From Terriglobales bacterium (lineage in GTDB: Bacteria > Acidobacteriota > Terriglobia > Terriglobales > Acidobacteriaceae), in assembly GCA_025936825.1 (NCBI GenBank), contig JAICSO010000003.1, forward strand, positions 124,001 through 188,000: 64,000 nt of DNA, given 5' to 3'. The notes under the pieces were generated by a model. The model was not told the origin of the DNA, did no database searches, and saw nothing but the letters and a program-made list of their open reading frames with translations. The position numbers were made by a program, and so were the translations under genes. Shown in pieces: positions 43,910 through 64,000 of this stretch. The first letter of the stretch is position 1. The number at the start of each line of letters is the position of its first letter.

Positions 43910-44893
43910 CTAAGGCTTTCGTCTTGTCTTTAGGGATGCGAGTGCCTGGCGGACGCTCTCTCCCTCCGGGCTCTCCGGTTTCTCTTTCAAGAACAGCTGA
44001 AATTGGGTAATTGCTTCGTCAGGATGATCTTGCATTCTCAACACTTTGCCAGCCATGATATGTACTTCGGCGAACTGCTCGTGATTGCGTAGAGCGTGGG
44101 TGCGCCGTACATCCGCAAGGGCCTTGTCGTATTCCCCATTCGCGAACTCAGCAGTGGCTAGCAGCGCAATAGCATCGGGCAGTGAGGAGTTTACAGAAAT
44201 AGCTTTTTCCAGCAAGGACTCCGACCTGGAGTAGCTGCGCTCTTGAAGATCCATACGCGCGAGATCCAAGTATGCAGGCACGAAAGCACCGTCCGCTTGA
44301 ATCGACTTCGCGAACATTTCTCTGGCCTTGATTCGGTCGGAACCCTTCATTGCGATCGCTCCGAGCATGTCATAGGCCCGCGCATATTGCGGGTACTCGG
44401 CTATGGCTTTTTGGAAGTGTCTAGCCGCGTTCTCCATATCTCCCTTAGCGTATGCATCCATACCCCTCTTCATCTCAGAGCTTGCGTTCTTGGGAATGTT
44501 CATCTCGCTCACGGAAACCGTAGCCGTTCCGGCCGAGTCTGCGGCGGAGTTCTGTTTATTGAGCTTCACATATACGTTCTCGATGTGTGTCTCTTCCAGC
44601 GGGGTGATATCGAAATACGAAGTGGTAACAGGCTCAATGCTCGTGCCGGATACTGACAAACGGTAGGTCCTCCCACTGGCGACTCGGAAATGCGCAAAAT
44701 CGGCTCCTGTAACCTGGGTAGCGGCTAACACTCCATGGTCTCCAAGCAGTTGAACCTGAATCGGGGATTCGACCCCCCGCTCGTTGCTGGTAAGTATACG
44801 CACCGATAAATCACAATCTCCGCGTCCTGCCTGGGCCAAGAGAGATGTCGATGCCAGGAGAAGGAATAAAACGGACGCGACGCAACGGGTCAT
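43910..44893 (-). CDS. Secreted protein with beta-rich N-terminal domain and TPRs
   Basis: 327 aa with a signal peptide (MTRCVASVLFLLLASTSLLA). Residues about 25-115 form a beta-sandwich-like region (LSVRILTSNERGVESPIQVQ, then ATQVTGADFAHFRVASGRTY RLSVSG), like the carboxypeptidase-regulatory or PEGA-type modules found on exported proteins. From about 135 there are four or five TPRs (MKRGMDAYAKGDMENAARHF, AYDMLGAIAMKGSDRIKARE, AYLDLARMDLQERSYSRSES). The TPRs probably bind partners at the surface or in the periplasm. It begins the run of exported genes that extends to the end of the window and is divergent from the propeller gene at 45512 across 618 bases. Confidence 0.82.
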   Translation of the reverse strand: MTRCVASVLFLLLASTSLLAQAGRGDCDLSVRILTSNERGVESPIQVQLLGDHGVLAATQVTGADFAHFRVASGRTYRLSVSGTSIEPVTTSYFDITPLEETHIENVYVKLNKQNSAADSAGTATVSVSEMNIPKNASSEMKRGMDAYAKGDMENAARHFQKAIAEYPQYARAYDMLGAIAMKGSDRIKAREMFAKSIQADGAFVPAYLDLARMDLQERSYSRSESLLEKAISVNSSLPDAIALLATAEFANGEYDKALADVRRTHALRNHEQFAEVHIMAGKVLRMQDHPDEAITQFQLFLKEKPESPEGESVRQALASLKTRRKP

Positions 44894-45511
44894 AATCCCT
44901 CCGCTTCAGCAAAGATTGCTGATTACAGTCTGGCTTGCTGTAAAGTGCGAATTCTTGAGCGCACCTTGCTATCCCTCTCGCGTGTTGTCAATTCTGACAC
45001 CGGCCCTGCGGTACTGGATTGTACTTGAGTTTGACGTCCGGGTTGTTAACGCGCACCATCGCTCCTCCTCGACCCCGTCCGGAGTGATTCTCACAATGTC
45101 GGTTCCAAGACCGAGTTGTTCCGGTGGTGTTACCAACCGAGACCCCTGAGACAGGTGCCACACAATGCAAAGCCGCTTGTGGAAGGCGCTCGAAGTGAAA
45201 TCCACACACCAATCCCGGTCTATCGGCCGACTCAAGCTTTCGCAAAACTTAGGAGGCCACTCCACAGTTCTCGACCTGCTGAAACGTCTCGCACAATTGC
45301 GCGAAGAAGACACGAACCATGAGCGAGAGCGGAGCCGTTACAAGTCTATGGGTGAGCCCCGAAGTCGTCCGAAACGAGGTCCACAATGCTTTTCTTGCTT
45401 ACAGAACTGGCCTGATTTCACGTAAACTCAGGAGACTGTCCACCACCCAGGTTCCGAGCCCCGGCCGAACTTTGAGGTGAGAAATTCGTTGGGCCTGTGT
45501 TTCCCTGCTAC
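44894..45511. other. Long divergent intergenic region, content unresolved
   Basis: 618 bases between two divergent exported-protein genes. Open frames occur on both strands (44969-45313 minus, 45165-45425 plus), but their products share nothing that I recognise and overlap each other. Part of it may be a decayed gene. It must contain the promoters for the TPR gene and for the propeller operon; I cannot place -35 and -10 boxes with confidence. Confidence 0.5.
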
Positions 45512-47218
45512 ATGCGGACAATCCTAATCTTTATTCTCGCCCTGCAAACGCCCCTGCTATTGCGTGCGCAAAAGGCGCCCTCGGAAGTCCCCACGTTCAG
45601 GGACATCTCCCGGATCGCTGGGCTGACCAGTCCGCACGTCTCCACCCCGGACAAGAAGTACATGGTTGAAGCCATGAGCGGCGGCATCGGATTCATCGAC
45701 TGCGATAATGACGGCAAGCTCGATATCGTGACGGTTAACGGTTCAACAGTCGACCACTATAAGTCTGGCGGCGATTTGATGGTGACCCTGTATCACCAGG
45801 AGACCGGGCTCAAGTTCAAAGACATTTCCGCTGAAGCCGGCCTAACCCGGAAAGGATGGGGCATGGGCCTTGCGGTGGCTGATTTTGACAATGATGGCTG
45901 GCAAGACATTTACGTTACGGGCTTCGGTGGCTCGGTGCTGTATCGAAACGAAGGCAATTGCAAATTTGAAGACGTGACGGCGCACGCAGGAGTCGCGGTG
46001 GATGGCTTTCCCACGGGCGCAGCCTGGGGAGACTACGATCGTGATGGCTTTGTAGATCTATTTGTTCCACGATATGCGCATGTGGATAATCGACAGTTCG
46101 AGAGCGATGCATCCTGCTCTTTCATGGGTCTGCACGTCTTCTGCGGGCCTTGGGGTTTCCCTGGGGAAACCGACTTCCTCTTTCACAATAAAGGGAATGG
46201 AACGTTCGAAGATGTTTCCAAAAAGGCTGGTGTTAGCGATGAAAAAGGACTTTTCGGGATGCAGGCCGTCTGGGCACAGTATGACAATGACGGCTGGCCA
46301 GATCTGTACGTTGCCAACGATCGTGGACCAAACTATCTGTATCGCAACAAGCACGATGGGACTTTTGAGGACGTCGGCGTCCTTTCAGGGACTGCGGTCA
46401 GCGGAGATGGCCGCGAGCAAGGGTCCATGGGGGTTGCGGTCGGTGATCTAAACCACGACGGCAACCTGGATATTTTCGTCACAAATTTCATGCAGGAGTC
46501 CGACACTCTGTATCGAAACCGGGGGGCACAAGGCTTTGCCGATGTTACGAATCCCTCTGGAATTGCGCGCGTTACGTTTCCACTAGTTGGCTGGGGAACG
46601 GGGTTCGTCGACTTTACCAACAGCGGATGGGATGACATTTTCGCCGCCAACGGTCACATCTACCCCCAAATGGACCAAGCACAAATGGGTGTCTTCTACC
46701 GTGAGCCGTTTGTGCTATTTCACAACAATCGCGATGGTACGTTCCGTGATATTGCACCCCAAACGCTCCTGCGGAAACTGCCTTTGGAATCGCGGCGGGG
46801 CGTGGCTTTTGGCGACGTTAATAACGATGGCAAGCCCGACGCAGTAGTTCTAAATGTGGATGGTCCTCCTACGCTGCTATTGAATTGCACTCACAATTTG
46901 AACCATGCGGTGCTTCTAAAGCTGGTCGGGACAAAAAGCAACAGAGCAGCGATCGGCGCGCGCGTCACGGTTACAGCAGGGGACCTGAAGCAAATGGAGG
47001 AAGTGCAGAGTGGGTCGAGCTATCTTTCGCAGAATGATTTACGACTGCATTTCGGGCTGGCAATACATTCAAAGTTGAACACTATTGAAATTCAATGGCC
47101 CAGCGGGGCCAAGCAGACGCTGCACGACCTGGCCGCAAATTCGATTTACACAATTGAAGAAGGAACTGGCATCCGGAACAGCATGCATCTGGGGTCGTCA
47201 GCGGGCTGCAGTCCGTAG
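45512..47218 (+). CDS. Secreted FG-GAP/ASPIC-UnbV (CRTAC1-type) beta-propeller protein
   Basis: 568 aa from the ATG at 45512 (a GTG five codons earlier is possible); signal peptide MRTILIFILALQTPLLLRAQ. The body has many FG-GAP/VCBS blades each carrying a calcium-binding DxDxDG-like loop: DCDNDGKLDIVTVNGST, DFDNDGWQDIYVTGFGG, DYDRDGFVDLFVPRYAH, QYDNDGWPDLYVANDRGPN, DLNHDGNLDIFVTNF, DVNNDGKPDAVVLNVDG. The C-terminal ASPIC/UnbV domain has VLLKLVGTKSNRAAIGARVT and QSGSSYLSQNDLRLHFGLA. Exported, probably calcium-stabilised, with an unknown ligand. The next gene starts within about 50 bases, so they form an operon. Confidence 0.88.
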   Translation: MRTILIFILALQTPLLLRAQKAPSEVPTFRDISRIAGLTSPHVSTPDKKYMVEAMSGGIGFIDCDNDGKLDIVTVNGSTVDHYKSGGDLMVTLYHQETGLKFKDISAEAGLTRKGWGMGLAVADFDNDGWQDIYVTGFGGSVLYRNEGNCKFEDVTAHAGVAVDGFPTGAAWGDYDRDGFVDLFVPRYAHVDNRQFESDASCSFMGLHVFCGPWGFPGETDFLFHNKGNGTFEDVSKKAGVSDEKGLFGMQAVWAQYDNDGWPDLYVANDRGPNYLYRNKHDGTFEDVGVLSGTAVSGDGREQGSMGVAVGDLNHDGNLDIFVTNFMQESDTLYRNRGAQGFADVTNPSGIARVTFPLVGWGTGFVDFTNSGWDDIFAANGHIYPQMDQAQMGVFYREPFVLFHNNRDGTFRDIAPQTLLRKLPLESRRGVAFGDVNNDGKPDAVVLNVDGPPTLLLNCTHNLNHAVLLKLVGTKSNRAAIGARVTVTAGDLKQMEEVQSGSSYLSQNDLRLHFGLAIHSKLNTIEIQWPSGAKQTLHDLAANSIYTIEEGTGIRNSMHLGSSAGCSP

Positions 47219-47237
47219 GCCGGAGAGATGAGCATAA

Positions 47238-49853
47238 TTGGAATCGGGGTTCGGTGATTTGTCGGTGCGCTTGCGAAAGCCGGGCCTAGTCGCCGCTGTA
47301 GTCGCAGTGCTGTGTGCTGGCATGTTTGGGCAGACGCGTGACTCAAAATATCCAGAGTCGGAGAACGAGATTACGCTGCAGATCATTGTGGTAAGTTCTC
47401 AGTCAGAAGCCCTCGACATTCTCGATCGAGTCCGTAAGGGCGAAGACTTCGCAACACTCGCCAAGACACGATCGATCGACTCCACCGCAGATTCCGGGGG
47501 CTATATGGGGCGCGTCGCCCCTGCTCGGCTGCGTCCCGAACTCAGGGCAGGGTTGGAGGGCCTGCAGCCCGGAGAAGTTTCTCATCCCATCAAAACCACG
47601 CTCGGTTACGCGATCCTCAAAGTGCTTGCTTTTTCCCCCGGGGCCGCAGCCGCCCCCAGCGGGGGCTCGGCTGCCACCGACGCACTGGGAAGTGTGAAAT
47701 ACTCTCTGACCGTCAGCGGGCAAAATGAGGCACAAATGCCTCTGCGCGAAATGTCTGAGGAACCGAGTTTCGATCCGACGCAGAAAGCCGTGTGTCAGAT
47801 CATGAGCAGCTACTCCCAAAAGGATTCGCTTGAGCGTTTCCTCGCGGAACACAAAGACATCTCTCTCAACATAATGGACGCTCATCGCTCTCTGGGCGAG
47901 ATTAATGTTTACATCGGAAACATGGACGCGGCCATCGACCAATACAAACAGGCGCAAGAGATCGCTCAGTCGCTGAATTCGGATGCGATGCAACAACTGA
48001 ATGAAGTGTTAGGTATTGCATATCTGCACAAATCCGAAATGGAAAACGATATTTATCGCAAACCGGGGGACCGATGTTTGTTGCCCATGCTGCAAAGCAG
48101 CCGCTATTCGAAAACAGAAGACTCGCGGCGAGCGGTGGAGTACTTTCTCAAATACTTATCGGGAAAGCCTGACGATCTTGAAGTCAAGTGGTTGCTCAAT
48201 TTCGCGTACATGACCTTGGGCGAGTACCCCGACGGAGTGCCCAAACAGTTCCTCATCGCTCCATCGACTTTTGAATCGCAGGAGGCAGCCCCTCATTTCC
48301 GCGATGTTGCGCCAGAAACGGGAGTCGACGCGTTCACGATGGCCGGCGGAATTATCGTCGATGATTTCCGAAATAATGGGCGGCTTGACATCGTGAAATC
48401 CAGCTTCGATACCTGCGCTCCGATGAAGTACTTCAGCAACAACGGGGACGGGACATTCACAGAGCAAGCCGCACAGATGGGACTTGCGGATCAGTTAGGC
48501 GGTTTGAATATCGTTCAAACCGACTACAACAACGACGGGTGTCTGGACATTCTGGTCATGCGTGGAGGTTGGGAATCGCCTCAACACAGGTCTCTCCTGC
48601 GCAATAATTGTAACGGCACTTTCACCGATGTCACCAAGTCGAGCGGGCTCAACGCTCCGACGAGTTCGCAAGCGGCGGTCTGGGCGGACATTAACAATGA
48701 CGGTCTTCTCGACCTGTTCGTCGGGAACGAGAATGGTCCAGCACAGTTGTTCCTCAATCTGGGCAACGGTCGTTTCAAGAACATTTCGCACTCTGCGGGA
48801 GTCGATCGCGTGTCCTTCGCAAAAGGCGTCGCCGCAGCGGACTATGACAACGACGGATACCCAGATCTCTTTGTTTCCAACCTCACTGGCCCGAACTTTC
48901 TCTATCACAATAATCACAACAACACCTTTACGGAGGTCGCGGAAACGGCTGGCGTGGCGGGGCCTACACATGGCTTTCCCACGTGGTTCTTCGATTACGA
49001 TAACGATGGCTGGCCCGATCTGTTCGTCACCAGCTATTTCTTTTCTGTCGACGAAACTGCACGTACCTACCTGAGCCTCCCGCATAATGCACCGACTCTG
49101 AAGCTGTATCGAAACCTGAGAAACGGGACCTTCCGTGATGTCACGGGGGAAGTTGGACTCGACAAAGTCTTTATGCCCATGGGAGCCAACTTCGGCGATA
49201 TCGACAACGATGGCTTCCTGGATATTTATCTCGGAACGGGCAGCCCGACCTACGGCTCGTTGGTGCCGAACGTCCTACTCCGAAACAATGAGGGCAAGTC
49301 ATTCGCTGACGTGACAACTGCAAGTGGAACCGGAGACTGGCACAAAGGCCATGGCGTTGCCTTCGCTGACCTCGCAAATCGTGGATTCGAAGATATTGTC
49401 GCGGTGATTGGAGGCGCTACCCCGGGAGACGCGCATGCGATGCGGGTCTTCGAAAATCCGGGAAACGGGAATGACTGGGTCAACCTGAAATTGGTGGGTG
49501 TGAAAACGAACCACCCTGCCATCGGAGCCAAAATCAAAGTTTCGGTCGAGAACGAAGGAGGGAGAGAGCGCTCAATCTATCGCACGGTTGGGAGTGGTGG
49601 ATCCTTCGGCGCATCGCCACTGGAGCAGCACATCGGCCTCGGCAAAAATGCCAAAATCATGGGAATTGAAATCTGGTGGCCGACCAGCAGGACACGCCAG
49701 CACTTCGCAAATGTAGGAAAAGATCAATTTTTAGAGATCAAGGAGTTTTCACCAAGATATGTCAAACTGACTCGTACTGCGTACATACTTGGCGGAATAA
49801 AGAACGGCAGGCAATCTCAACCGAGTTCCAGTTCTTCTGGGCCTGCAAACTAG
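47238..49853 (+). CDS. Secreted parvulin - TPR - FG-GAP/ASPIC-UnbV fusion protein
   Basis: 871 aa. Start codon unclear: TTG at 47238 has GGAGAG upstream at wide spacing, and GTG at 47265 is an alternative; either way LVAAVVAVLCAGMFGQ is the signal peptide. Residues 44-132 are a parvulin (PpiC/SurA-type) rotamase: ALDILDRVRKGEDFATLAKT RSID, DSGGYMGRVAPARLRPEL, LQPGEVSHPIKTTLGYAILK V. Next come TPR-like helices (about 200-345), an FG-GAP propeller with DYNNDGCLDILV and DINNDGLLDLFV loops (about 360-760), and a C-terminal ASPIC/UnbV domain (LKLVGVKTNHPAIGAKIKVS). Parvulins fold exported proteins, so this may be a dedicated foldase or scaffold. The SCO gene follows after 12 bases. Confidence 0.87.
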   Translation: MESGFGDLSVRLRKPGLVAAVVAVLCAGMFGQTRDSKYPESENEITLQIIVVSSQSEALDILDRVRKGEDFATLAKTRSIDSTADSGGYMGRVAPARLRPELRAGLEGLQPGEVSHPIKTTLGYAILKVLAFSPGAAAAPSGGSAATDALGSVKYSLTVSGQNEAQMPLREMSEEPSFDPTQKAVCQIMSSYSQKDSLERFLAEHKDISLNIMDAHRSLGEINVYIGNMDAAIDQYKQAQEIAQSLNSDAMQQLNEVLGIAYLHKSEMENDIYRKPGDRCLLPMLQSSRYSKTEDSRRAVEYFLKYLSGKPDDLEVKWLLNFAYMTLGEYPDGVPKQFLIAPSTFESQEAAPHFRDVAPETGVDAFTMAGGIIVDDFRNNGRLDIVKSSFDTCAPMKYFSNNGDGTFTEQAAQMGLADQLGGLNIVQTDYNNDGCLDILVMRGGWESPQHRSLLRNNCNGTFTDVTKSSGLNAPTSSQAAVWADINNDGLLDLFVGNENGPAQLFLNLGNGRFKNISHSAGVDRVSFAKGVAAADYDNDGYPDLFVSNLTGPNFLYHNNHNNTFTEVAETAGVAGPTHGFPTWFFDYDNDGWPDLFVTSYFFSVDETARTYLSLPHNAPTLKLYRNLRNGTFRDVTGEVGLDKVFMPMGANFGDIDNDGFLDIYLGTGSPTYGSLVPNVLLRNNEGKSFADVTTASGTGDWHKGHGVAFADLANRGFEDIVAVIGGATPGDAHAMRVFENPGNGNDWVNLKLVGVKTNHPAIGAKIKVSVENEGGRERSIYRTVGSGGSFGASPLEQHIGLGKNAKIMGIEIWWPTSRTRQHFANVGKDQFLEIKEFSPRYVKLTRTAYILGGIKNGRQSQPSSSSSGPAN

Positions 49854-49865
49854 CGAGGCGGAATT

Positions 49866-50750
49866 GTGAGGTCGTTGATTTTCGCGGTGCTCGTGGCCCT
49901 GGTTGTCCCCTCAGCGTGGGCCGGCAGGCAGTACTCTGCAACCTGCATGATTTTAACCGTCGATCACACCCGGCAAACTTTCGTGGCATCTTGTCAGCCG
50001 ATTCCTGGCTTTATGGAAGCCATGAGCATGCCATTCGACGTGCGCGATCCCAGGGAACTGGATGGGCTTCTTCCGGGTAATATTGTCGATTTCACGCTGA
50101 GGGTTGACGAAAGCAGTTCTTACGCGGAACACGTCAAAATTCATCCTTATGTCTCAGCAGAACAAGATCCCTGGCTGGCGCGGCAACTGAAGCTTCTGAG
50201 AAGTCTCTCGAGTCAAAAGTCTTCGCCCAAACCGTTACAGATCGGCAGCGCGGTTCCGAATTTCACTTTGACCGATCAGGCTCGCCGGCCAGTTTCGTTT
50301 TCTCAATTTGCCGGCAAAGTCGTCGCGCTAAACTTCATCTACACCAGTTGTGCTCTGCCGACCTATTGTTTCCGCATGGCAAACAATTTCGGTGTAGTTC
50401 AGCGAAGGCTGAAAGATTACCTCGGCCGTGACCTGGTACTAGTCACAGTCACCTTTGATCCCCAGCGGGACACCCCAGAGGTTCTCGCGCACTATGCTCA
50501 AACTTGGAAAGCTGACCCCAAAACTTGGCACTTTCTCACCGGGCCTTTATCTGAAGTGAGGCGCGTGACTTCCATGTTGGGCATGGACTTCTTTCCCGAC
50601 GAAGGTTTGATGAATCATTCCCTGCACACTGTAGTGATTAACCGCCAGGGGAAAGTTGTGGCAAACATTGAAGGAAATCAGTTCACCGCTGACCAACTGG
50701 TGGATCTGATCAAGAGCGTTCTTAATGATGGGTCTATACCGCACACCTAG
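49866..50750 (+). CDS. SCO-family protein with N-terminal CusF-like copper domain
   Basis: 294 aa from a GTG at 49866; signal peptide MRSLIFAVLVALVVPSAWAG. Residues 24-95 resemble the periplasmic copper-binding CusF fold, with a Met-rich GFMEAMSMPFDVRDPRELDG LLPG motif (M50, M53, M55). Residues 123-290 are a SCO/SenC thioredoxin fold: IGSAVPNFTLTDQARRPVSF, metal-binding cysteines C162 and C168 (TSCALPTYC), VLVTVTFDPQRDTPEVLAHY, and His251 in MNHSLHTVVI. SCO proteins deliver copper to cytochrome oxidase or other cuproproteins, or reduce their thiols. No oxidase genes are here, so it may serve the neighbouring cytochromes or an enzyme elsewhere. Last gene of its operon. Confidence 0.88.
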   Translation: MRSLIFAVLVALVVPSAWAGRQYSATCMILTVDHTRQTFVASCQPIPGFMEAMSMPFDVRDPRELDGLLPGNIVDFTLRVDESSSYAEHVKIHPYVSAEQDPWLARQLKLLRSLSSQKSSPKPLQIGSAVPNFTLTDQARRPVSFSQFAGKVVALNFIYTSCALPTYCFRMANNFGVVQRRLKDYLGRDLVLVTVTFDPQRDTPEVLAHYAQTWKADPKTWHFLTGPLSEVRRVTSMLGMDFFPDEGLMNHSLHTVVINRQGKVVANIEGNQFTADQLVDLIKSVLNDGSIPHT

Positions 50751-51018
50751 CAGGAATCTTTGACATCACAGTTATTGGCGCTCTCCAAACGAACTCGCCA
50801 ACAACGGAAATCTCGTCATGGGCTGCGACGGTGAACCAGCACTGTTCCACAGTTTGGAAGCACAGCGCTCGCGAAAACGGCACGGCGGCGCGATACCGGA
50901 ATAGCAGCGTTCCGGTCGCCGCAGCGTCAGTTAAGTCATATGAGGGCCACCATGGCAAAACTCGCTACTGCCTTTTGAAGGTTGCCCCGTCTGCCTGCAG
51001 TGTTGGGTCGCGATGACT

Positions 51019-52122
51019 CTATTCTCCGCGGGGTTTCGAGAATACTTCTTTTGGAATACTTACGTTCACGCGCACGGTTGTGATCTGTACGCTGAAACGT
51101 CCCGTGGGAGTTGACGAGGTCCAATGAAACGGAACTTTGACAGCGCCGACTCTGCGATAGTCGGAGTAGTCCGTTTGGATTGGATTCAGTCCCAAAGTCG
51201 ATGTCGAGTAATAAACGCTTCGCAACACGAGCCCGCTGGTAATATCGAAATACATCTCGACGGGCGGCAGACCGGGCCGCTGACCAGATAACACAACACT
51301 CTTCGCGGTGCTCAACTTGGAGAATTCCTTGAACCTTATCTCCGGGAAAATTGTGTTCAGATCCAATCCGAATTGAAAAGCGGCGTCCAAACGAGCAGCA
51401 TCCATTTCCGCAGACGACATGACACGGATGGGACGTCCGGGAATTACAATCCAACCCGTCGTGCCTTCGAATGCCGAGATTCGGTCTGTCCCGTTAAGGT
51501 GGATCGTCGTGGCACTCTGACCAGATTTTGTTAAGTAAAGTTCTACGGGGAAACGGCGCGAGTCGGATTCAAAAGTTCCTCGCTCTTCGAGGTTAGTGAG
51601 ACTGCCGAGTGCGGACGCTCCGCCGCGGGCAGTGATGTACTTTGAAAGGACATCGTGCGAAGAAGGCTGGTTCGCCACGTCGCGAGGATTATCAGAAACT
51701 GAACTACTTGCCAACCGTGGTGTCGCGTCTGCAATCACTGGCACCGTCAACGGTTTGGGGCTGCCGCGGTGACAGGAGTAGCAGGTCACCTCCTGCTTGC
51801 CTTGGAATTTTGTGCGGTTGATCTCTTCCACCATCCGCATCATCTCGCGGGCGGTCTGCTTCGGCTTCTTGTCGTCCTTCGCGAACGCATTTTCTACGTG
51901 ACAGTACTCGCAGTGAACCCCTAAAGATGAAGTGATGAATTGCATCGATGGCAGCAGCAGATCAGAAGGCGTGTCATTCAGCACCTTAAGGTTTTTGAAC
52001 ACGTCGCCACTTTTCTTTTCTGGGCTGGGGCCTGGTGTTTGACCGTGAGCCCATGCAACTCCTAGCGTGAGAGCAAACCCTAGGAAGCGTGCCGTTCGCA
52101 GTTTCGTCACCATCTTCTCCAT
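51019..52122 (-). CDS. Exported di-heme cytochrome c (reaction-centre cytochrome subunit-like)
   Basis: 367 aa with a signal peptide (FLGFALTLGVAWAHGQ). Two heme c sites, C71-E-Y-C-H75 and C114-Y-S-C-H118, lie in a domain resembling the photosynthetic reaction-centre cytochrome c subunit family: VFKNLKVLNDTPSDLLLPSM QFITSSLGVHCEYCH, then KKPKQTAREMMRMVEEINR, then VTCYSCHRGSPKP. Non-photosynthetic acidobacteria often carry this domain. From about 150 to the end there is a separate beta-rich domain (GASALGSLTNLEERGTFESD, PVEMYFDITSGLVLRSVYYS), similar in feel to outer-membrane lipoprotein-carrier folds. Last gene of the minus-strand cytochrome cluster, 50 bases after the seven-heme gene. Confidence 0.85.
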   Translation of the reverse strand: MEKMVTKLRTARFLGFALTLGVAWAHGQTPGPSPEKKSGDVFKNLKVLNDTPSDLLLPSMQFITSSLGVHCEYCHVENAFAKDDKKPKQTAREMMRMVEEINRTKFQGKQEVTCYSCHRGSPKPLTVPVIADATPRLASSSVSDNPRDVANQPSSHDVLSKYITARGGASALGSLTNLEERGTFESDSRRFPVELYLTKSGQSATTIHLNGTDRISAFEGTTGWIVIPGRPIRVMSSAEMDAARLDAAFQFGLDLNTIFPEIRFKEFSKLSTAKSVVLSGQRPGLPPVEMYFDITSGLVLRSVYYSTSTLGLNPIQTDYSDYRRVGAVKVPFHWTSSTPTGRFSVQITTVRVNVSIPKEVFSKPRGE

Positions 52123-52172
52123 TCAGCTACCTACTCCTGGTTTCCATTCACCTACTTACTTCGCGTAAGTTG

Positions 52173-53396: not shown

Positions 53397-53509
53397 GAAT
53401 ATTCGGCGTTCGTACCTCGGCGACAGCAGGCAAATGCAGGGAGACACAAAGGTAAAAGCGATCTCCAGAACTCCTTACGAGAGTGCGTCTCATCGAATAA
53501 TGACGGAAC

Positions 53510-55249: not shown

Positions 55250-55325
55250 CTGAATCGGAAGATTGCTGATCTTTTTGATCGGGTGAATCTATGGGACAGT
55301 GCTGCAATCCTGAATGTGTCAACCA

Positions 55326-55560
55326 TTACTGAGGCGGCGCGACACCCTGCTGTGCCGAGAACCTGCGTTCCAGATCATGGAAGAGAATCTCATTCGGGCT
55401 CACCGCAAATAATGCTCGAGGATGTTTTTGGCATCATCGAATTTTCCTCGCCTGGCGTAGTGTACCGCTAAGCGGCCGTAAGCTTCCTTCAGCGAAGGAT
55501 CGATGTTGATGGCCCTTCGATACTGTTCCTCGGCTTCACTCGCCGATTGGAATTCGAATC
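55326..55560 (-). pseudogene. Frameshifted remnant of a TPR-cytochrome gene
   Basis: On the minus strand codons 55543 to 55403 encode ASEAEEQYRRAINIDPSLKE, then AYGRLAVHYARRGKFDDAKN, ILEHYLR, and hit TGA at 55402-55400. A shift by one base (TGG lost a G) gives W-S-P-N-E-I-L-F-H-D-L and stops at TAA (55326-55328). The intact neighbour reads KAIALNPSWKEPYGRLTMFY, LDRYLTWNPNEILFHEWRK in the same place. No CxxCH is left upstream, since the propeller gene stop comes next, so only the C-terminal TPR end of a paralogous cytochrome survives. Confidence 0.8.
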
Positions 55561-55672
55561 CAGTGGTGATCGTTATGTCTTACGAAGCCGCGACTCAGAC
55601 GCGATCAAACATAAGTCCGGGACGCGTCAACCGCCGTCGTTACAATGTGATCCCGAACCTCGAGAAATTTAG

Positions 55673-57379
55673 TCAGCGCGTCGGTTCTTCGATTCGATGG
55701 AATTGATTCACTGAAATATCTTTCAAGACCTGGTGTATGCCGCTGGGCCAGCGGATGTCAACCTGCTGGACTGTCTTGAATTGGCTTAGGCCAAAATGGA
55801 CGCGCGCATCGCGAGACGCACCATAACCAGAACTGGTGGAGACGATATCGTACTGGCTCTTGCCATCGGGAGTGGTGATCTTAACTTGCGCGCCAATTCC
55901 CATGCTGTTGCTCTTGCTGCCGACGAGCTGAAATGCAACCCAGTTGTTCGTGTTGTGTGTAACGTTACGCAGAATTCTTGCCTTTCCGTTGAGCACGGTA
56001 ACAACGACATCCATATGGCCGTCGTTGAACAGGTCTCCAATAGCGGCACCGCGATAAGGCTCTGAGACCTGGATGGCCACTCCTGCCTGGGCCGTGACGT
56101 CCTCGAAAGTCATGTTGCCGAGATTCCGGAAAACGGAGTTTGGTTCGCCGTAGGTGCGATTGGAAAATTCCGCAATGTTGTCGAGAACGTTGCCGCGCGC
56201 GACGAACAGGTCTTTTTCACCGTCATTATCGAAGTCCGCAATACCGTTCGACCATCCTGACATTTCCAACGTTGGTCGCGCGATTCCGCTACGGCCGGTT
56301 ACGTCTATGAAAATGCCTTTACCACGATTTCGAAACAGCGGGAAAGTCTCGAGCTCTGTAGCCGTATGCCAAATGTCAGGTAAGCCGTCGTTGTCCAGAT
56401 CTCGGAACTCAGCTCCCATGCCCGACACCGCTTTGCCATTTTCGGAATATGCGACGCCTGCATCCAAAGCGACTTCCTCGAATTTTTCCCCTTTTATGTT
56501 ATGAAAAAGGGAATTAGGCATGTTGTCATTGGCTACAAATATGTCCGTAAAACCATCGCCATCATAGTCATTGAACCCAATGCCCATGCCCTTGCCGAGT
56601 TTCTTCGATATGCCTGTCTCATCCGAAACGTCGGTGAAGGTCCCGTCGCCATTGTTGCGATAGAGCGTCGACGGCAGGGGTTCGTAGAACTTAGGATGGC
56701 AGTAGGCACGCAATCTTCCACCGCTGAGGCAAACAGGGTCCTTGTTCACTTCCCATTTGCAGTAATTGGAGACAAACAGATCCAATTTGCCGTCGTTGTT
56801 GTAGTCGAACCATCCGGCAGCGGCACTCCACATTTTTTCGCCCTTGTACGTGGGAGAGCCGACTCCCGCTTTATCCGTCACATCGGTAAAGGTCCCGTCG
56901 TGATTATTGTGGTACAAGTGGTTCTTGGTCACGCTCGCGACATAAATGTCGGGCCAACCGTCATTATCATAGTCACCGACGGCGATTCCCATGTCGAAGC
57001 CATCGCCCTGCAGTCCCGCCTTCTCGGTAACATCGGTAAAGGTGCCATCATGGTTATTGCGATAGAGACGGTTGTAAAACTTGGGAGAGTCTTTTTTTAG
57101 GGAAGGGAGAGATGCACCGTTAATCAGAAAAATGTCGAGATATCCGTCATTGTCGTAATCAATAAGGCCAACGCCGGAGAGCATAGTTTCAGGTTGGTTC
57201 TTGTTGGGCGTCGGGCTGCTGTCTGCGAAAAAATCAATTCCTGATTTGCTGGTGACGTCTTCAAAACGAATCGTGCTGTTACCGGCCGCGTTGAGCCCGA
57301 TCGCTACCGCCAGGAGAAGAGCAAGGGTTATTGTTCCCGTTACGAGGCCACGAAGCATTTCTGACCGCCAGTCTAGCAT
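55673..57379 (-). CDS. Secreted FG-GAP/ASPIC-UnbV beta-propeller protein
   Basis: 568 aa from the ATG at 57379; TTG at 57409 and ATG at 57358 are alternatives and none has a good ribosome-binding site. Signal peptide MLRGLVTGTITLALLLAVAI GLNAAG. Propeller blades carry Asp-rich calcium loops: DYDNDGYLDIFLING, DYDNDGWPDIYVASV, DYNNDGKLDLFVSNY, DYDGDGFTDIFVAND, DLDNDGLPDIWHTA, DFDNDGEKDLFVARG. The ASPIC/UnbV end includes FQLVGSKSNSMGIGAQVKIT and STSSGYGASRDARVHFGLSQ, and it finishes VDIRWPSGIHQVLKDISVNQ. First gene of the minus-strand cytochrome cluster, so it probably works with them. Confidence 0.88.
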   Translation of the reverse strand: MLDWRSEMLRGLVTGTITLALLLAVAIGLNAAGNSTIRFEDVTSKSGIDFFADSSPTPNKNQPETMLSGVGLIDYDNDGYLDIFLINGASLPSLKKDSPKFYNRLYRNNHDGTFTDVTEKAGLQGDGFDMGIAVGDYDNDGWPDIYVASVTKNHLYHNNHDGTFTDVTDKAGVGSPTYKGEKMWSAAAGWFDYNNDGKLDLFVSNYCKWEVNKDPVCLSGGRLRAYCHPKFYEPLPSTLYRNNGDGTFTDVSDETGISKKLGKGMGIGFNDYDGDGFTDIFVANDNMPNSLFHNIKGEKFEEVALDAGVAYSENGKAVSGMGAEFRDLDNDGLPDIWHTATELETFPLFRNRGKGIFIDVTGRSGIARPTLEMSGWSNGIADFDNDGEKDLFVARGNVLDNIAEFSNRTYGEPNSVFRNLGNMTFEDVTAQAGVAIQVSEPYRGAAIGDLFNDGHMDVVVTVLNGKARILRNVTHNTNNWVAFQLVGSKSNSMGIGAQVKITTPDGKSQYDIVSTSSGYGASRDARVHFGLSQFKTVQQVDIRWPSGIHQVLKDISVNQFHRIEEPTR

Positions 57380-57532
57380 ATTCGCGCGCGCGTCTTTAAA
57401 GAGCGGCAACGAGATTCACGGTAAGGCATTTGCGCCGTTGCTCATACGGTTGTACTGAGGACACCGCCTTTCAGTGTGATAGCTTGGTGATGATTCCCGC
57501 CCGGAATTGGCTCCCTGGCCAATCTGCTTCTC

Positions 57533-59320
57533 GTGGTATCTTCATCCAAATTCCGTTCGTGCGGATTGCAGTTTCGAAAATCCTTGGGGAGCAAACTCTT
57601 GTCACGTTGGCGGCCTCTGGTGGTTCGCGGGCTCGTCGCTCTATGCTTGTCAGCGTTTGCAGTCCCCTGCAGCTCTCAAGCAGTTCGGGCTGCCGGCCAG
57701 ATTCAATTTACTGATGTAACGAAAGCTGCGGGTATCGGGTTCGTTCACTTCAAAGGCAACCTGGGTACGTCGATCAACCTGGAGGAATTCGGTCCCGGTG
57801 TTTGTGTAGCCGACTTCGACGGAGATGGTTGGACCGACATTTACTTTGTGAATGGTCGCGACCGCTACGGACGCGGCATTTCAGTTCGCAACGCGCTTTA
57901 CCACAACAACGGAGACGGGACGTTCACCGATGTTACGGACAAAGCTGGCGTGCCCGGGACGGACTATGGCCTTGGCTGCGTCTGGGGAGATTATGACAAC
58001 GATGGCTATCCCGACCTCTTCGTGACACAGTACGGGCGCAACGTTCTGTACCACAATAATCGCAATGGAACGTTTACGGACGTGACGGACAATGCCGGTG
58101 TCGGAGGACTTGAGTCAGGCAAATTCCATAGCAGCGCAGCGTTCCTCGATTACGACCGCGATGGCTACCTCGACCTCTATGTCGGGAGCTACGTCCAGCT
58201 TGAGCCTGATGGCCCGCGGTACTGCAACGTCGCGGCAAACGTCAAAAGTAGTTGTCCGCCGCAAGCGTACAGAGGGAGCGTTGATGCTCTTTACCACAAC
58301 AACGGCAACGGTACCTTTACCAACACGACCCAACTTGCGCACGTTTACCAGCCGAATGGCAAGAATTTGGCGGTTGGCGTTGCGGATTATGACAATGACG
58401 GCTGGCCCGATATCTTCGTGGCCAACGATGGCATCCCCTCCTACCTTTATCACAATGAGCACGGGACGTTTCGCGAAATAGGAGTTGCGTCGGACATAGC
58501 GTACTCAACGGACGGCAGGGCCATGGCAGCCATGTGTGTGTCTCTCGGAGACTATGACAACGACGGTTGGCTTGATCTCTACATATCGGACTTTTTAGGG
58601 AACGGAGACCACCTCTGGCACAACGAACACAACACTCGCATGCGTGAGACCACAGGAGAGGCAGGCCTTTTTCTGCCCACGCTGAATGTATTGAGTTTTG
58701 GGGGAGGGTTCTTCGACTACGACAATGACGGTTGGCTCGACTTATTTATCGCAAATGGCCATGTGTATCCTGAGGTTGAAACCTTCCCGGTGCGAGAGAA
58801 ATATCGCCAGCTGAACTCGGTCTTCCACAATCAAGGAAGTGGCAAGTTTCTCGAGTCGACCAAAGCCACTGGCATCGCATCATTGCCGCCTCGCGTGGGT
58901 CGAGGGGTGGCTTTTTTTGATTTCGACAATGATGGATTCATGGATGTCGTTGTGGCGAATAATGACGACATTCCCACCGTTCTACACAATTCCGGCAATT
59001 CCAATCATTTCCTCGATGTCAAGCTTGTGGGGACGAAAAGCAATCGCGATGCGTTGGGTTCCCGCGTGCGCGTCGTATCCGGCGGTATGGCGCAGTTACG
59101 CGAGATTTCCAGTGGCGGAAGTTATCTTTCACAAAGCGATGCGCGCGCAAGCTTCGGCGTCGGTCAAGCCATAGAAGCGGAACGCCTCGAAGTCACTTGG
59201 CCAAGCGGACAGCAAGATGTTTTCTCGCACGTACCGAGCGACAAGTTTTATTTAATTGAGGAGGGTTCACATGAATTACGGTTACAGAAATTTTCTCGGC
59301 CGTCACCTAAAGAAAAATGA
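57533..59320 (+). CDS. Secreted FG-GAP/ASPIC-UnbV beta-propeller protein
   Basis: 595 aa from a GTG at 57533; the hydrophobic segment LVVRGLVALCLSAFAVPCSS (residues about 29-48) is the signal, so a shorter start is possible. Propeller blades include DFDGDGWTDIYFVNG, DYDNDGYPDLFVTQYGR, DYDRDGYLDLYVGSY, DYDNDGWPDIFVANDGI, DYDNDGWLDLYISDF and DFDNDGFMDVVVAN, all Ca2+-loop-like. The C-terminal ASPIC/UnbV domain has VKLVGTKSNRDALGSRVRVV, SSGGSYLSQSDARASFGVGQ and LEVTWPSGQQDVFSHVPSDK. Divergent from the propeller at 55673 with 153 bases between, so the two share a control region. Confidence 0.88.
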   Translation: MVSSSKFRSCGLQFRKSLGSKLLSRWRPLVVRGLVALCLSAFAVPCSSQAVRAAGQIQFTDVTKAAGIGFVHFKGNLGTSINLEEFGPGVCVADFDGDGWTDIYFVNGRDRYGRGISVRNALYHNNGDGTFTDVTDKAGVPGTDYGLGCVWGDYDNDGYPDLFVTQYGRNVLYHNNRNGTFTDVTDNAGVGGLESGKFHSSAAFLDYDRDGYLDLYVGSYVQLEPDGPRYCNVAANVKSSCPPQAYRGSVDALYHNNGNGTFTNTTQLAHVYQPNGKNLAVGVADYDNDGWPDIFVANDGIPSYLYHNEHGTFREIGVASDIAYSTDGRAMAAMCVSLGDYDNDGWLDLYISDFLGNGDHLWHNEHNTRMRETTGEAGLFLPTLNVLSFGGGFFDYDNDGWLDLFIANGHVYPEVETFPVREKYRQLNSVFHNQGSGKFLESTKATGIASLPPRVGRGVAFFDFDNDGFMDVVVANNDDIPTVLHNSGNSNHFLDVKLVGTKSNRDALGSRVRVVSGGMAQLREISSGGSYLSQSDARASFGVGQAIEAERLEVTWPSGQQDVFSHVPSDKFYLIEEGSHELRLQKFSRPSPKEK

Positions 59321-59437
59321 GGACGGGTATGCAGGCTAGCCCACGCCACTGACGAAGAGCGTTCGCGCAGAACGAGACTGCTGGCCATAGCGATGCGATG
59401 GCTTTTTTGACTCACCCCAACACATTATTTAGCCCTT

Positions 59438-60619
59438 CTACTTTGCTGGAGCATCGGGAGATGCGTTGAGATTGGACGCGTTCAGTCGCTCGAATTCCGC
59501 GCGCTCGCGATCCGCTTCGGCGGTTTTTCCTGCTTCCGCCAGAACTCGAGAAAGCGCAAAGTGAGCATCAGGGCTTCCGGGGGCTAATTTCACCGCCATC
59601 CGTAGTTCCTGCTCAGCAACTTGTGTTTTTCCCAGGGCCAGCAATAGGCGACCATAGGCAACGTGAGCGACGAAGTTATTCGGTGCCAGGGTTACCGCTT
59701 CTTTTGCATACTTCAATCCTCGCTGGTACTCCGCGGTACGCTGGAACTCGAGAGCGAGCTGGATTCTGGCCGCCGAGTGGGAGGGAGAAATTTGGATTTC
59801 CCTCTTGAATTCATCGACTGCGAGGGTAGGGTTGTCTTTCAGCAGAAACACGCCGTATGCATAATGTACCCCCGGCTCTGACGGATATACGACAAGCACC
59901 CGCTTGAACTGTTCACCCGCACCCACGCGATCCTGCAAGGCGATCAGCGCTTCAGCAATACCGACTGCGCGAATCACAGGCGCGTTGTGAGGCGAGATTT
60001 CAGAAGGGAGTGCCGGTCTTCGCAAACCCGCGATTCCAAAAGCGTCGAGCAGTTCAGTGTCGGCGAGCACCGCTTCTTTCGGAGAGTTCGGATGCGCTGC
60101 CGCAATCCGGTTTGCTAGCAGAGTCAATCTTGTTATCGAGAACTCGGGCCGGCCAAGCAAGGAATCCAAAATGGCATCGTGGTACAGCACGGTGCGCCCG
60201 AAGTCGGGATTCTCTCCCAAGCCGAACCTGATTCCGCGTTCTAGGGATGCGAGTGCTTTCGGGTATTGCTTGAGCTGAAACTCGCTCAAGCCGAGCATTG
60301 CAAATCCGGGCCCGGGTTGGTTTCGCTCAACTGAGACGAAATGCATAAATGAGTTTCGGGCTTCAAGGAATTGTCTCGAATCATAGAAAAGCGTACCGAG
60401 ATGCCACCAACCCTCGGGCCACCCGGGCTGCAGTCTGGTTGCGCGTGTATAGAGCCGGATGGCTTCCGCGACATGATCGGATTCCATCGCCATTTGAGCG
60501 CGAGTAGCTAATTCGTCGAACGACTCCGAACTGGGATTGACGGCTTGTGAACACAAGAAGTCACTGCCATACGATAGAACGCACGCGACAAGAGCCATTC
60601 GCAGTAGGCAGGTTCTCAT
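59438..60619 (-). CDS. Secreted TPR protein
   Basis: 393 aa from the ATG at 60619; a longer frame to 60736 has no signal features, whereas MRTCLLRMALVACVLSYGSD FLCSQA is a good signal peptide, possibly with lipobox-like Cys. The rest is a superhelix of about eight TPRs: EAIRLYTRATRLQPGWPEGW, FLEARNSFMHFVSVERNQPG, KALASLERGIRFGLGENPDF, AGEQFKRVLVVYPSEPGVHY, LAVDEFKREIQISPSHSAAR, GLKYAKEAVTLAPNNFVAHV and VAEQELRMAVKLAPGSPDAH. A partner-binding role near the outer membrane is plausible. It is flanked by a propeller gene and a VWFA gene, both on the opposite strand. Confidence 0.85.
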   Translation of the reverse strand: MRTCLLRMALVACVLSYGSDFLCSQAVNPSSESFDELATRAQMAMESDHVAEAIRLYTRATRLQPGWPEGWWHLGTLFYDSRQFLEARNSFMHFVSVERNQPGPGFAMLGLSEFQLKQYPKALASLERGIRFGLGENPDFGRTVLYHDAILDSLLGRPEFSITRLTLLANRIAAAHPNSPKEAVLADTELLDAFGIAGLRRPALPSEISPHNAPVIRAVGIAEALIALQDRVGAGEQFKRVLVVYPSEPGVHYAYGVFLLKDNPTLAVDEFKREIQISPSHSAARIQLALEFQRTAEYQRGLKYAKEAVTLAPNNFVAHVAYGRLLLALGKTQVAEQELRMAVKLAPGSPDAHFALSRVLAEAGKTAEADRERAEFERLNASNLNASPDAPAK

Positions 60620-60898
60620 GGTATGTGAGAGTTTCCTTAAAGTTGCGAAGGATGCTTCGTTTGCCAGTCTACCTACACTTGAGCACTCCGTCACCTGCGA
60701 TGCGATAGCCAGCGTGGGACCGAAGATCTCACTCACCGTAAGGCTTGAAAGCCCAATCGTATTCGTAACGATTTGTAAAGAAGATCGATGTAGTACAGGA
60801 AATTAAGCTGTATTAGACTGTTGCCCAAACCATTTCCGCGAAATCCGCTGCCCTATTCCAAACGGAGTCGCAGTCAAAGCTTCAAGGAGGCCTGAATC

Positions 60899-63097
60899 AT
60901 GAACCGGCTGTTTGTATTACTCGCGGGAATTCTGTTGGGTGCCTGCAATTGCATTTGGGGACAATCTCCAACGCCGCAGCAAGAAGCCGCTCCAGCAGCC
61001 ACGACCATTCGATCCAATGCACAGGAAGTCGTTCTTGACATGGTCTTCCGCGATAAAAAAGGCAAAACGGTTCGCGATATTCGCCCAGAAGAGATACATA
61101 TCTCGGAAGATGGTGTCGATCAGAAAGTGACGTCTTTCCGGTTGGTGGAGGGAAACGCACCCGTAGCGCCTGCTTCTTCTGCAACCAAGCTCAGTTTGGA
61201 TCCCATGCGCGAAATTCGGCTTGTCACGTTGGTTTTTGAAGGGCTCGACCCGGAGGGGAAACGTTTTTTTCGACAGGCGCTTAAAGACATGCTGGACATG
61301 ACGCCGGAACAAAATCTTTATTTTTCGGTGTTGACGATCGATCAGCGCCTGCATGTCATTCAGCCGTTCACTGCTGATCACGATGCTCTGCTCAAAAGTG
61401 TCGACAAAGCGGCCATGTGGTCTTTTATTCAATACTCGAACAACTCCGCGATCGTGAAGTCAGACTTGAAACAGATTGTGGATCAAGGAGAACCGGCCCT
61501 GAACAGCACGGCGGGGCCTGGGGGAGGTGGCCCGAGCCAGGCCGCGATCCAGGGTAATGTGAATTATCAAATGGCGAAAATGCAGTATGACATGTTGTCC
61601 GCTGCTGAAGCAGCGGACCGCGAATACAACGCGCGCGCCACGATTGATGCGCTGCTAACTCTGGTGCATGCGCAATCGCAATTGCCAGGCCGCAAAGTCG
61701 TCCTGTATTTCAACCCGTCGCTAACGATTACTGAAACCGTCAAGGAGCAATACAGTAATTTGATCGGTGTAGCGAATCGATCAAACGTGTCGTTTTACAC
61801 GGTCGATCCCAGGGGACTGGCCTCGTGGAGCAACGGTGCTGCCGGTCGTACTGCTAGTGGGATGGACATGACGGGCGGAGGCGGCGGTGGTCGGGACATG
61901 ATGAACCAGTCTTTGTCTGAGATTCAAAATCAGCAGCTCAATGGAGGTCGCGGCGAAGTATCGACCGCTCAAGTTCGTGCTCAGGAAAATGCCGAAAGTG
62001 CGCTGCGCGCCAACCCCCTTGAGTGGCTACGCGACTTGGCCCGCCAGACGGGCGGTATGACGATTGCTGAGACCAACGACTGGAAGGCGCCGCTTAGGAC
62101 GGTCATGGAAGAGGTGCGGAGCTATTACGAAGTTGCCTACTCGCCTCACATCGAAGTTTATGATGGCAAGTTCCGAAAGATCACAGTACATATCGATCGG
62201 CCAAACGTCATTGTTCATACAAGGAGCGGCTACTTCGCTTTGCCGCCGGTCAAGAGTGGGCAGCAACTCTATGCTTACGAGATGCCCCTTTTGAATGCCT
62301 TGAACGCGTCGCCGTCGCCAGCGAATCTAGATTTCCAGGCGGCGGCTGAGCGGTTTAACGATCACAACGCCAAAGTTGAATATATGGTCACTTTGGAAGC
62401 CCCTCTAGACGGGTTAACCTTCACGCCTCAGGCGGACAAGAAGAATGCGTCAGTCGATGCGGCTCTACTAACGGTCATTAAGAATTCGAGTGGCGAAATC
62501 GTTGAGAAGTTCAGTAAAGATTTCGCCGTGGAGGTTGCCCTAGATAAGGTTGATGCGTATAAAGCTGGCAATCTGGTCCAAACGTTTCATACGCAACTTG
62601 CTCCCGGAACCTACACCCTGGAATCAGTAGTCATGGATCGCAACAGTAATAAGCTGGGCGTTAAGAAAAGTCCCTTAGGGGTTGCACCTTCTTCTGACAA
62701 GCTCTCGATCAGCGATGTCGTCGTGGTGCGCCGGACGGACGCTACGAAGGACACCCAGGCCAACGATGCTTTCTATTTTCCTGGAGGGAAGGTGGTTCCC
62801 ACATTGAGCACTACCCTCAAGGGTGGACCAGGAAACGTTCTGCCGTTCTACTTTAACGTCTATCCAGACCCAGCCGCCAAAGACCCTGTCAAATCCTTCA
62901 CAATGTCTTTCTACAAGGACGGGCAGTATCTCGGTGCCGCCCAAGCGCCCCTACCAAATGTGCAAGCAGATGGGCGAATACCTTACATCGCCAATTTGCC
63001 AGCAGATAAATTTACTCCAGGTGCCTATGAGATTCGCATCGGGGTGACGCAAGGCAACTCCAAGGCGGAAGAAAATGTCGACTTCAAGGTCGAGTAG
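60899..63097 (+). CDS. Large secreted VWFA-related protein
   Basis: 732 aa from the ATG at 60899, with AAGGAGG upstream at ideal spacing. Signal peptide MNRLFVLLAGILLGACNCIW G, with a Cys suggesting a possible lipoprotein. The VWFA-related core has SNAQEVVLDMVFRDKKGKTV RDI, then IHISEDGVDQKVTSFRLVEG, REIRLVTLVFEGLDPEGKRF FRQAL and a Gly/Asn-rich insert near 310-350 (TGGGGGGRDMM). The first domain ends near YYEVAYSPHIEVYDGKFRKI TVH and VHTRSGYFALPPV. An extra C-terminal region of about 280 residues (FTPQADKKNASVDAALLTVI, GAYEIRIGVTQGNSKAEENV) is beta-rich. The classical DxSxS is absent. The next TPR gene starts 53 bases on. Confidence 0.85.
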   Translation: MNRLFVLLAGILLGACNCIWGQSPTPQQEAAPAATTIRSNAQEVVLDMVFRDKKGKTVRDIRPEEIHISEDGVDQKVTSFRLVEGNAPVAPASSATKLSLDPMREIRLVTLVFEGLDPEGKRFFRQALKDMLDMTPEQNLYFSVLTIDQRLHVIQPFTADHDALLKSVDKAAMWSFIQYSNNSAIVKSDLKQIVDQGEPALNSTAGPGGGGPSQAAIQGNVNYQMAKMQYDMLSAAEAADREYNARATIDALLTLVHAQSQLPGRKVVLYFNPSLTITETVKEQYSNLIGVANRSNVSFYTVDPRGLASWSNGAAGRTASGMDMTGGGGGGRDMMNQSLSEIQNQQLNGGRGEVSTAQVRAQENAESALRANPLEWLRDLARQTGGMTIAETNDWKAPLRTVMEEVRSYYEVAYSPHIEVYDGKFRKITVHIDRPNVIVHTRSGYFALPPVKSGQQLYAYEMPLLNALNASPSPANLDFQAAAERFNDHNAKVEYMVTLEAPLDGLTFTPQADKKNASVDAALLTVIKNSSGEIVEKFSKDFAVEVALDKVDAYKAGNLVQTFHTQLAPGTYTLESVVMDRNSNKLGVKKSPLGVAPSSDKLSISDVVVVRRTDATKDTQANDAFYFPGGKVVPTLSTTLKGGPGNVLPFYFNVYPDPAAKDPVKSFTMSFYKDGQYLGAAQAPLPNVQADGRIPYIANLPADKFTPGAYEIRIGVTQGNSKAEENVDFKVE

Positions 63098-63150
63098 CGG
63101 ATACGGGGATTGTGGCGGTTATACTCTCCTTGAGGGTGATTAACGAGGTG

Positions 63151-64000
63151 ATGCGGTTCTGGATGTTGGCGGGCCTGATTTGGGGAAGCCTTGCATTAGC
63201 GCAGGATACCTCAGCGGACCAAACTCTGCGGCGAGCTATCGAACTTCAGCAGTCAGGGCATTACGCTGAGGCCATTGCAGGGTATCGAAGTTATTTAGAA
63301 ACTCACCCCGAGGCGGGTGCGGTTCGTTCGAATCTTGGTGCCGCCCTGGCACACGAGGGCAAGTACAGCGAAGCCATTCAGCAGTACGAACTTGCCCTCA
63401 GAGCACAACCCTCAAATTATGGAATCCAGTTCAACTTAGCTCTTGCTTACTACAAACAGGGTGAGGTCGCTTCGGCAGTCAGGGGGTTCCAGTCCGTCTA
63501 CGCTGTCATACCCCAGGAGTCTCCTGACCGGAGGCGGGTTGCACTTTTGCTCTCCGAATGCTACTTGCGCCAAGGCGAGGATCAGCGCGTTATCTCATTG
63601 CTGGATCCGATTGCCGATTCGGACCCAAACGATCTTGCGCTCGCCTATCTGCTGGGCACAGCGCTCTTGCACCAGGGACAAGATCAGCGGGGCGCATTAA
63701 TGATTGACCGTATCCTGCGCAATGGCGACACAGCCGAAGCGCACATGCTAATGGCATACACTCGATTGAAAGGCAACGATAAGAAAGGTGCCGGGCAGGA
63801 AGTTGACCGGGCTCTCGCACTGAATCCCAACTTGTCCGAAGCGTATGTGTTGCAAGGGAGACTGGGATTCCTGGAATCCGATTTAAAGACCTCGGAGACA
63901 TCATTTCGTAAAGCGCTCGACCTGGATCCTAATGCCTTCGACGCGCTCCTTTGGTTGGGAACACTACTACGGCAACAGGGACGATTTAAGGAGTCTCATG
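63151..64000 (+). CDS. Secreted TPR protein, 3' end outside the window
   Basis: At least 283 codons from the ATG at 63151 (the adjacent GTG at 63148 is possible), open to the end of the window. Signal peptide MRFWMLAGLIWGSLALAQDT. TPR units follow: LRRAIELQQSGHYAEAIAGY, SNLGAALAHEGKYSEAIQQY, FNLALAYYKQGEVASAVRGF, LLSECYLRQGEDQRVISLLD, AYLLGTALLHQGQDQRGALM, AYTRLKGNDKKGAGQEVDRA, AYVLQGRLGFLESDLKTSET and LLWLGTLLRQQGRFKESH. It is cotranscribed with the VWFA gene. Whether it ends in TPRs or carries an ASPIC/FG-GAP or other domain downstream cannot be seen. Confidence 0.88.
   Translation, partial: MRFWMLAGLIWGSLALAQDTSADQTLRRAIELQQSGHYAEAIAGYRSYLETHPEAGAVRSNLGAALAHEGKYSEAIQQYELALRAQPSNYGIQFNLALAYYKQGEVASAVRGFQSVYAVIPQESPDRRRVALLLSECYLRQGEDQRVISLLDPIADSDPNDLALAYLLGTALLHQGQDQRGALMIDRILRNGDTAEAHMLMAYTRLKGNDKKGAGQEVDRALALNPNLSEAYVLQGRLGFLESDLKTSETSFRKALDLDPNAFDALLWLGTLLRQQGRFKESH

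Follow-up and report, generated by a model that had tools for sequence, protein, structure and literature searches.

The described systems closest to the locus analysed here are the SusC/SusD PULs of Bacteroidota, in which a TonB-dependent receptor is encoded beside exported helical-repeat or accessory proteins, sugar enzymes and LacI-type regulators. Single components of the locus also resemble described proteins. CRTAC1/ASPIC-UnbV propellers are characterised by their fold, FG-GAP loops and an UnbV domain, and SCO1/SenC copper chaperones by the PF02630 domain, a conserved His and, canonically, the copper motif CXXXC. Porin-cytochrome conduits for extracellular electron transfer pair an MtrB-type porin with a decaheme partner. 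The cytochromes OcwA, OmhA and MccA bind nine, eleven or eight hemes; OcwA and MccA have an added beta-sheet domain in common (PMC6703420), and MccA contains an atypical catalytic heme motif, CX12(N/A)KGCH (PMC6976685).

We analysed a window of 64,000 nucleotides from a Terriglobales bacterium of the family Acidobacteriaceae (C45:124001-188000 of a 6.54-Mb genome), in which an initial annotation had described a 20-kb run of exported genes that might act together as a redox machine. As in the SusC/SusD PULs, a TonB-dependent receptor lies beside exported helical-repeat and accessory proteins, and sugar enzymes and LacI-type regulators are found beside several copies of the module. Unlike those loci, the module has no SusD in the nine genomes searched, its receptor is Oar-like (PF25183), it includes CRTAC1 propellers and multiheme cytochromes, and no CAZyme was found at the window copy. 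In our judgement, the probability that the association of these genes reflects joint function is roughly 85%. The genes form a loose recurrent module of Acidobacteriota and not a fixed operon, and a regular partner, missing from the earlier picture, is an Oar-like TonB-dependent receptor encoded outside the window. Together with the sugar-degrading enzymes that often adjoin it in relatives, this makes the module a candidate for a nutrient-uptake system, not described before, that brings along electron carriers of its own. The open-licence literature that we searched contained no paper joining CRTAC1/UnbV or FG-GAP proteins with TonB receptors in Acidobacteria, and no description of the module.

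Gene content and extent of the cluster

All of the TPR, propeller, SCO, cytochrome and VWFA genes named in the initial annotation were recovered intact, in position and in family. The run from 43.9 to 64 kb had been taken as a unit, and its genes do belong together, but it represents the left two thirds of a cluster of ~29 kb, which is cut by the window end and continues to about window-equivalent 72.6 kb. The cluster begins on the minus strand with TPRa (43910-44893), a TPR protein by Pfam that is predicted to be exported and is 31% identical to L064:9863-10909, which adjoins paralogues of the cytochromes CYTn and CYT2 in another cluster of the same genome (C65). Three plus-strand genes follow, encoding the CRTAC1-type FG-GAP/UnbV propeller PROP1 (45497-47218; PF13517, PF07593), the parvulin-TPR-FG-GAP-UnbV fusion PARV (47238-49853; PF00639, TPR_8, PF13517, PF07593) and the putative copper protein CusF-SCO (49866-50750; PF02630, PF11604). 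Facing them on the minus strand are CYT2 (51019-52122; NF033196, PF02276), a diheme reaction-centre-type cytochrome with an extra C-terminal domain, the heptaheme cytochrome CYTn (52173-53447), the heptaheme cytochrome CYT7 with its TPR tail (53510-55249) and the CRTAC1-type propeller PROP3 (55673-57409; PF13517, PF07593); CYT2, CYTn and CYT7 contain 2, 7 and 7 CXXCH motifs, respectively. Between PROP3 and CYT7, the minus-strand segment 55250-55672 has stops in all frames and holds a decayed second CYT7 tail, which matches CYT7 residues 498-541 with 50% identity across 44 aa. Beyond PROP3 lie a further CRTAC1-type propeller, PROP4 (57533-59320, plus; PF13517, PF07593), the predicted exported TPR protein TPRb (59438-60736, minus; Pfam TPR), an acidobacterial VWFA protein (60899-63097, plus; TIGR03436, 3e-62) and a predicted exported TPR protein of 389 aa (Pfam TPR), which starts at 63112 on the plus strand, is cut by the window end at 64000 and is complete at L009:3112-4281.

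Past the window end we found another TPR gene (L009:4278-5378), the receptor gene (L009:5899-9624; 1241 aa), a fifth CRTAC1-type propeller (L009:9825-11585) and a further TPR gene (L009:11582-12619). The receptor was assigned to the TonB-dependent family from its PF25183 barrel and CarboxypepD_reg domains. We read the gene next after the last TPR gene as tRNA nucleotidyltransferase-like, followed by other housekeeping genes.

The earlier description of every intact gene from 43.9 kb onward as exported held, as a simple signal-peptide rule predicted export for all 11 complete window cluster genes. Applied to control stretches taken from relatives, the same rule selected 62 of 200 ORFs, and in the remaining window (1-43.9 kb) it selected 9 of 32, so the exported run lies far above chance. 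Two convergent operon-like units had also been proposed. Both are borne out by short intergenic gaps (19 and 12 bp in the plus unit, 50 and 62 bp in the minus unit), but a gap of 423 bp, containing the decayed CYT7 tail, follows the propeller of the minus unit. Promoter and terminator scans gave signals no higher than in shuffled sequence. Just upstream of the cluster, window positions 41786-43681 hold a 631-aa ORF that matched nothing in Pfam and gave no more than a weak, partial NCBIfam match to arabinofuranosidase.

Recurrence of the gene set in relatives

Of 80 genomes sampled from the family, counting the one under study, 18 contained relatives of CYT7 and 22 relatives of CYTn. With one pipeline throughout, we compared the surroundings (20 kb at most) of 24 CYT7 and 21 CYTn loci with 19 usable arbitrary stretches from the same taxonomic group. 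A propeller gene lay nearby at 9/21 CYTn loci (p 1e-3) and 12/24 CYT7 loci (p 2e-4), and a TPR gene at 12/21 and 18/24; neither was seen in any of the 19 controls. Most CYT7 relatives were beside receptor, propeller or TPR genes. A receptor occurred near 16/24 CYT7 and 12/21 CYTn loci, against 7/19 controls; since this family is common everywhere, it is weak evidence by itself, and its proximity to CYTn (p 0.17) was not significant and was set aside as a stand-alone argument.

A second scan, in which GTDB genomes were chosen by CYTn sequence alone, yielded eight close relatives (L106-L113; L108 and G006:C9 are one contig). TPR genes accompanied all eight, and a receptor and a propeller seven each. 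Two of the eight, L109 and L112, are contigs of the cultured Granulicella sp. L46. More distant heptahemes of Bryobacterales (L114-L116, L119) were also near receptor and/or propeller genes. A propeller gene and a CYT7 gene overlap by 4 nt in L042, L044, L045, L046/L108 and the Sulfotelmatobacter locus L113, indicating that genes which the window divides between its two convergent units form one operon-like unit elsewhere; the overlapping propeller in L108 and L113 is 59% identical to PROP1. Almost the whole set is found within 28 kb in another genus (G028:C8, 52.9-80.9 kb), comprising VWFA, CYT2, CYTn, three propellers, two TPR genes, a receptor, a TPR gene, a propeller, PARV and SCO. VWFA relatives also lie near CYT2 or CYTn in L064, L066, L068 and L081, while CYTn or CYT7 homologues stand alone in L040, L041, L048, L074 and L076.

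Gene order and content vary among genomes across Acidobacteriota, which rules out a fixed 20-kb operon. The proposal that the genes act together survives, since the families are found together both in relatives and in a second, paralogous cluster of the genome under study, but as a recurrent module only. In the proposed check for conserved co-occurrence and order, the PARV-SCO adjacency is kept and heptahemes are found near propellers and TPR genes, but the set as a whole has no conserved order. On a planctomycete contig (TMED10; L155:3104-5563), several propellers, octaheme cytochromes and a PARV-like protein occur together, and the association may thus reach beyond Acidobacteriota.

Heme proteins

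The true start of CYTn is probably inside the listed ORF. Its predicted structure has moderate confidence (pLDDT 71.5) and matched OcwA (Z 11.9), OmhA (Z 10.3) and MccA (Z 9.0) in VIA-align over about 250-270 residues, with the next unrelated fold at Z 4.9; Foldseek alone gave weak TM values, and the VIA-align result was clearer. The sequence profile of CYTn reaches the same three proteins and also c554. The model has the overall fold of the OcwA/MccA branch of the NrfA/HAO superfamily and includes a beta domain that spans approximately residues 120-225. CYTn differs from OcwA, OmhA and MccA in having seven hemes and in being without a CX15CH catalytic motif; its heme motifs are seven standard CXXCH only, and the CX12(N/A)KGCH motif of the MccA type was not found in it.

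Two non-heme cysteines of CYTn, Cys329 and Cys381, are invariant in 18 relatives and could form a metal site or a disulfide. Cys329 is common to all 21 aligned heptaheme relatives, and Cys381 to close CYTn relatives only. Equating the pair with the copper ligands of MccA was attempted and dropped, as no mapping was obtained; the profile alignments are largely confined to the heme motifs.

CYT2 adjoins CYTn in G026, G028, G068, G078 and the paralogous cluster C65. In G036 (L039:7253-9787, minus strand), a heptaheme-TPR cytochrome and a diheme cytochrome are fused in an 844-aa frame with nine CXXCH motifs.

Propellers and the PARV/CusF-SCO pair

The propeller genes belong to the CRTAC1/ASPIC-UnbV family by PF13517 and PF07593 matches above cut-off. 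The AlphaFold model of PROP1 (pLDDT 88.6) matched murine CRTAC1 (9etn) with Z 41.7, at 2.2 A over 453 residues. A likeness of PROP1 to aldos-2-ulose dehydratase (Z 28.7) was discarded because other propellers match equally well. Fold, FG-GAP loops and UnbV domain are as in CRTAC1; the cluster propellers differ in being bacterial, in occurring in multiple copies beside receptor, TPR and cytochrome genes, and in that one is fused to parvulin.

PARV relatives (E<=1e-60) were detected in 14 of 80 family genomes, seven of them full-length with the parvulin part, own included; the parvulin part was found in 30/299 class genomes. Full-length PARV is followed by CusF-SCO in all six relatives of the first (family) sample. 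Across the class, in a second sample, the two are adjacent at 14 of 18 judgeable loci, one of the 14 being divergent, which brings the overall count to 20 of 24 and makes this the most strictly conserved pair in the analysis. In the first sample, SCO homologues linked to PARV are 47-62% identical to the window protein, whereas those elsewhere reached at most 36%, except for two fragments at ~50%. The window SCO has the PF02630 domain above cut-off, a conserved later His and the motif TSCALPTYC; copper binding is predicted. Like SCO1/SenC it keeps the domain and the His, with a CusF-like N-terminal domain in addition; in contrast to them, its motif is CX5C and not CXXXC, and its gene partner is a parvulin-propeller and not an oxidase subunit. 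The PARV-linked SCO homologues examined have CX5C in common. Most PARV-SCO pairs of relatives have no heme-gene neighbours and no CYTn nearby, so that PARV, SCO and the seven-heme genes do not constitute an obligatory set.

Sugar-related neighbours of the module

The tallies cover the 25 commonest of the 131-140 families in each set. Among 97 non-module ORFs within 4 kb of module genes, these included GH29, GH31, GH37, GH127, GH38, GH130 and GH116, whereas the 25 for 94 matched control ORFs included no GH family. Arabinofuranosidase, GH127, GH95, tannase/feruloyl esterase and LacI-type regulators were seen beside module copies, the first, fourth and last of these also in the genome under study. 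The CAZymes lie beside other copies; at the window copy, flanked by housekeeping genes, neither a glycoside hydrolase nor a sugar regulator was found. SusD_RagB (PF07980) was absent from all nine genomes searched (own and eight relatives), with a positive Bacteroides control, and the module is therefore not classed as a SusCD locus.

Pfam searches of the intact window cluster genes and, past the window end, of the receptor, the propeller and two of the three TPR genes returned no MtrB-type porin with a decaheme partner. The cluster thus departs from a porin-cytochrome extracellular conduit in the missing porin and in heme counts of 2, 7 and 7. The picture of a self-contained redox machine could not be upheld, given this result and the glycoside hydrolases and sugar-type regulators among relatives' neighbours.

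Interpretation of the module

Recurrence of glycoside hydrolases and sugar-type regulators near relatives' copies points to nutrient acquisition with cytochromes attached. We give about even odds to a TonB-linked, PUL-like nutrient-acquisition system that dispenses with SusD and has heptaheme cytochromes of the OcwA/MccA type attached. The window run would then represent the greater part of one copy of a modular acidobacterial envelope system, centred on the Oar-like outer-membrane receptor just beyond the window. TPR proteins and CRTAC1-type calcium-loop propellers may capture a bulky substrate, or present it to the receptor; the substrate is probably a glycan or glycoconjugate of plant or microbial origin. 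CYTn, CYT7 and CYT2 could pass electrons into or out of a reaction on this substrate or on its partner enzyme, in the periplasm or at the surface, and the PARV/CusF-SCO pair might fold one of the cluster proteins and supply it with copper. A stronger version, which we regard as unlikely, is a redox-coupled TonB uptake new in kind, in which receptor, TPR proteins and propellers would capture a polymer or chelate without SusD, and the heptaheme cytochromes, metallated or folded by CusF-SCO and PARV, would perform an electron-transfer step on which uptake or cleavage depends.

A respiratory or extracellular electron-transfer machine, with the heptahemes as terminal reductases like OcwA and the rest as scaffold, appears quite unlikely. 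The CYTn model does match surface cytochromes (OcwA, OmhA) and a sulfite reductase (MccA) well above unrelated folds, and its profile reaches the same proteins and c554, but likeness of fold is no proof of function, there are only seven hemes, neither an MtrB-type porin nor a quinol-linked membrane module was found among the cluster genes searched with Pfam, and sugar enzymes and receptors are among the recurrent neighbours in relatives. Copper offers another reading, in which CusF-SCO loads a heme-copper site of CYTn, comparable to that of the heme c-copper enzyme MccA, or another cuproprotein, with PARV as foldase. The strict conservation of the PARV-SCO pair, the MccA/OcwA fold of the CYTn model and its two invariant non-heme cysteines argue for it; CYTn is not near most PARV-SCO pairs in relatives, however, and is without the MccA-type motif, and Cys329 and Cys381 may instead form a disulfide. 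We consider this reading very improbable.

The genes might also form no system at all, if large exported families (propellers, TPR, VWFA and receptor proteins) pile up by tandem duplication in an expandable region and the cytochromes are caught among them. The genome's 32 UnbV domains and roughly 49 receptor-barrel loci, the tandem propellers, the decayed CYT7 tail and the variable order among genomes speak for such a process. Against it, unrelated families remain together, though differently ordered, in different genera and also outside the family (Bryobacterales L114-L116 and L119, Sulfotelmatobacter L113), control stretches gave zero propeller or TPR matches, and 4-nt overlaps tie cytochrome to propeller as gene fusion ties cytochrome to cytochrome; we consider this origin improbable.

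Acidobacteriota are abundant soil decomposers, and each of the sampled genomes has TonB receptor barrels by the dozen and between 4 and 32 UnbV propellers, for which the recurrent gene set provides a testable common context. Read as nutrient acquisition, the module hints at polymer uptake without SusD, links a heptaheme branch of the OcwA/MccA fold with carbon acquisition instead of plain respiration, and ties CRTAC1-type propellers, which are shared with vertebrates, to a tractable bacterial setting.

Other copies in the same genome

The paralogous cluster C65 contains a receptor, two TPR genes, VWFA and TPRa-like, CYTn-like and CYT2-like genes; a propeller and a LacI-type regulator are close by. 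Genome-wide, a receptor barrel is encoded no more than 6 kb away from 11 of the 19 UnbV clusters, where chance would give 11% each (p ~1e-6). At L022:7595-12696 a propeller gene overlaps a pentaheme-TPR gene, and a similar pentaheme gene is found near propellers in L037. Two contigs of this genome start with a near-identical arabinofuranosidase gene beside module copies (L010:2-1582 and L016:2-1585), which reflects either a recent duplication or an assembly break.
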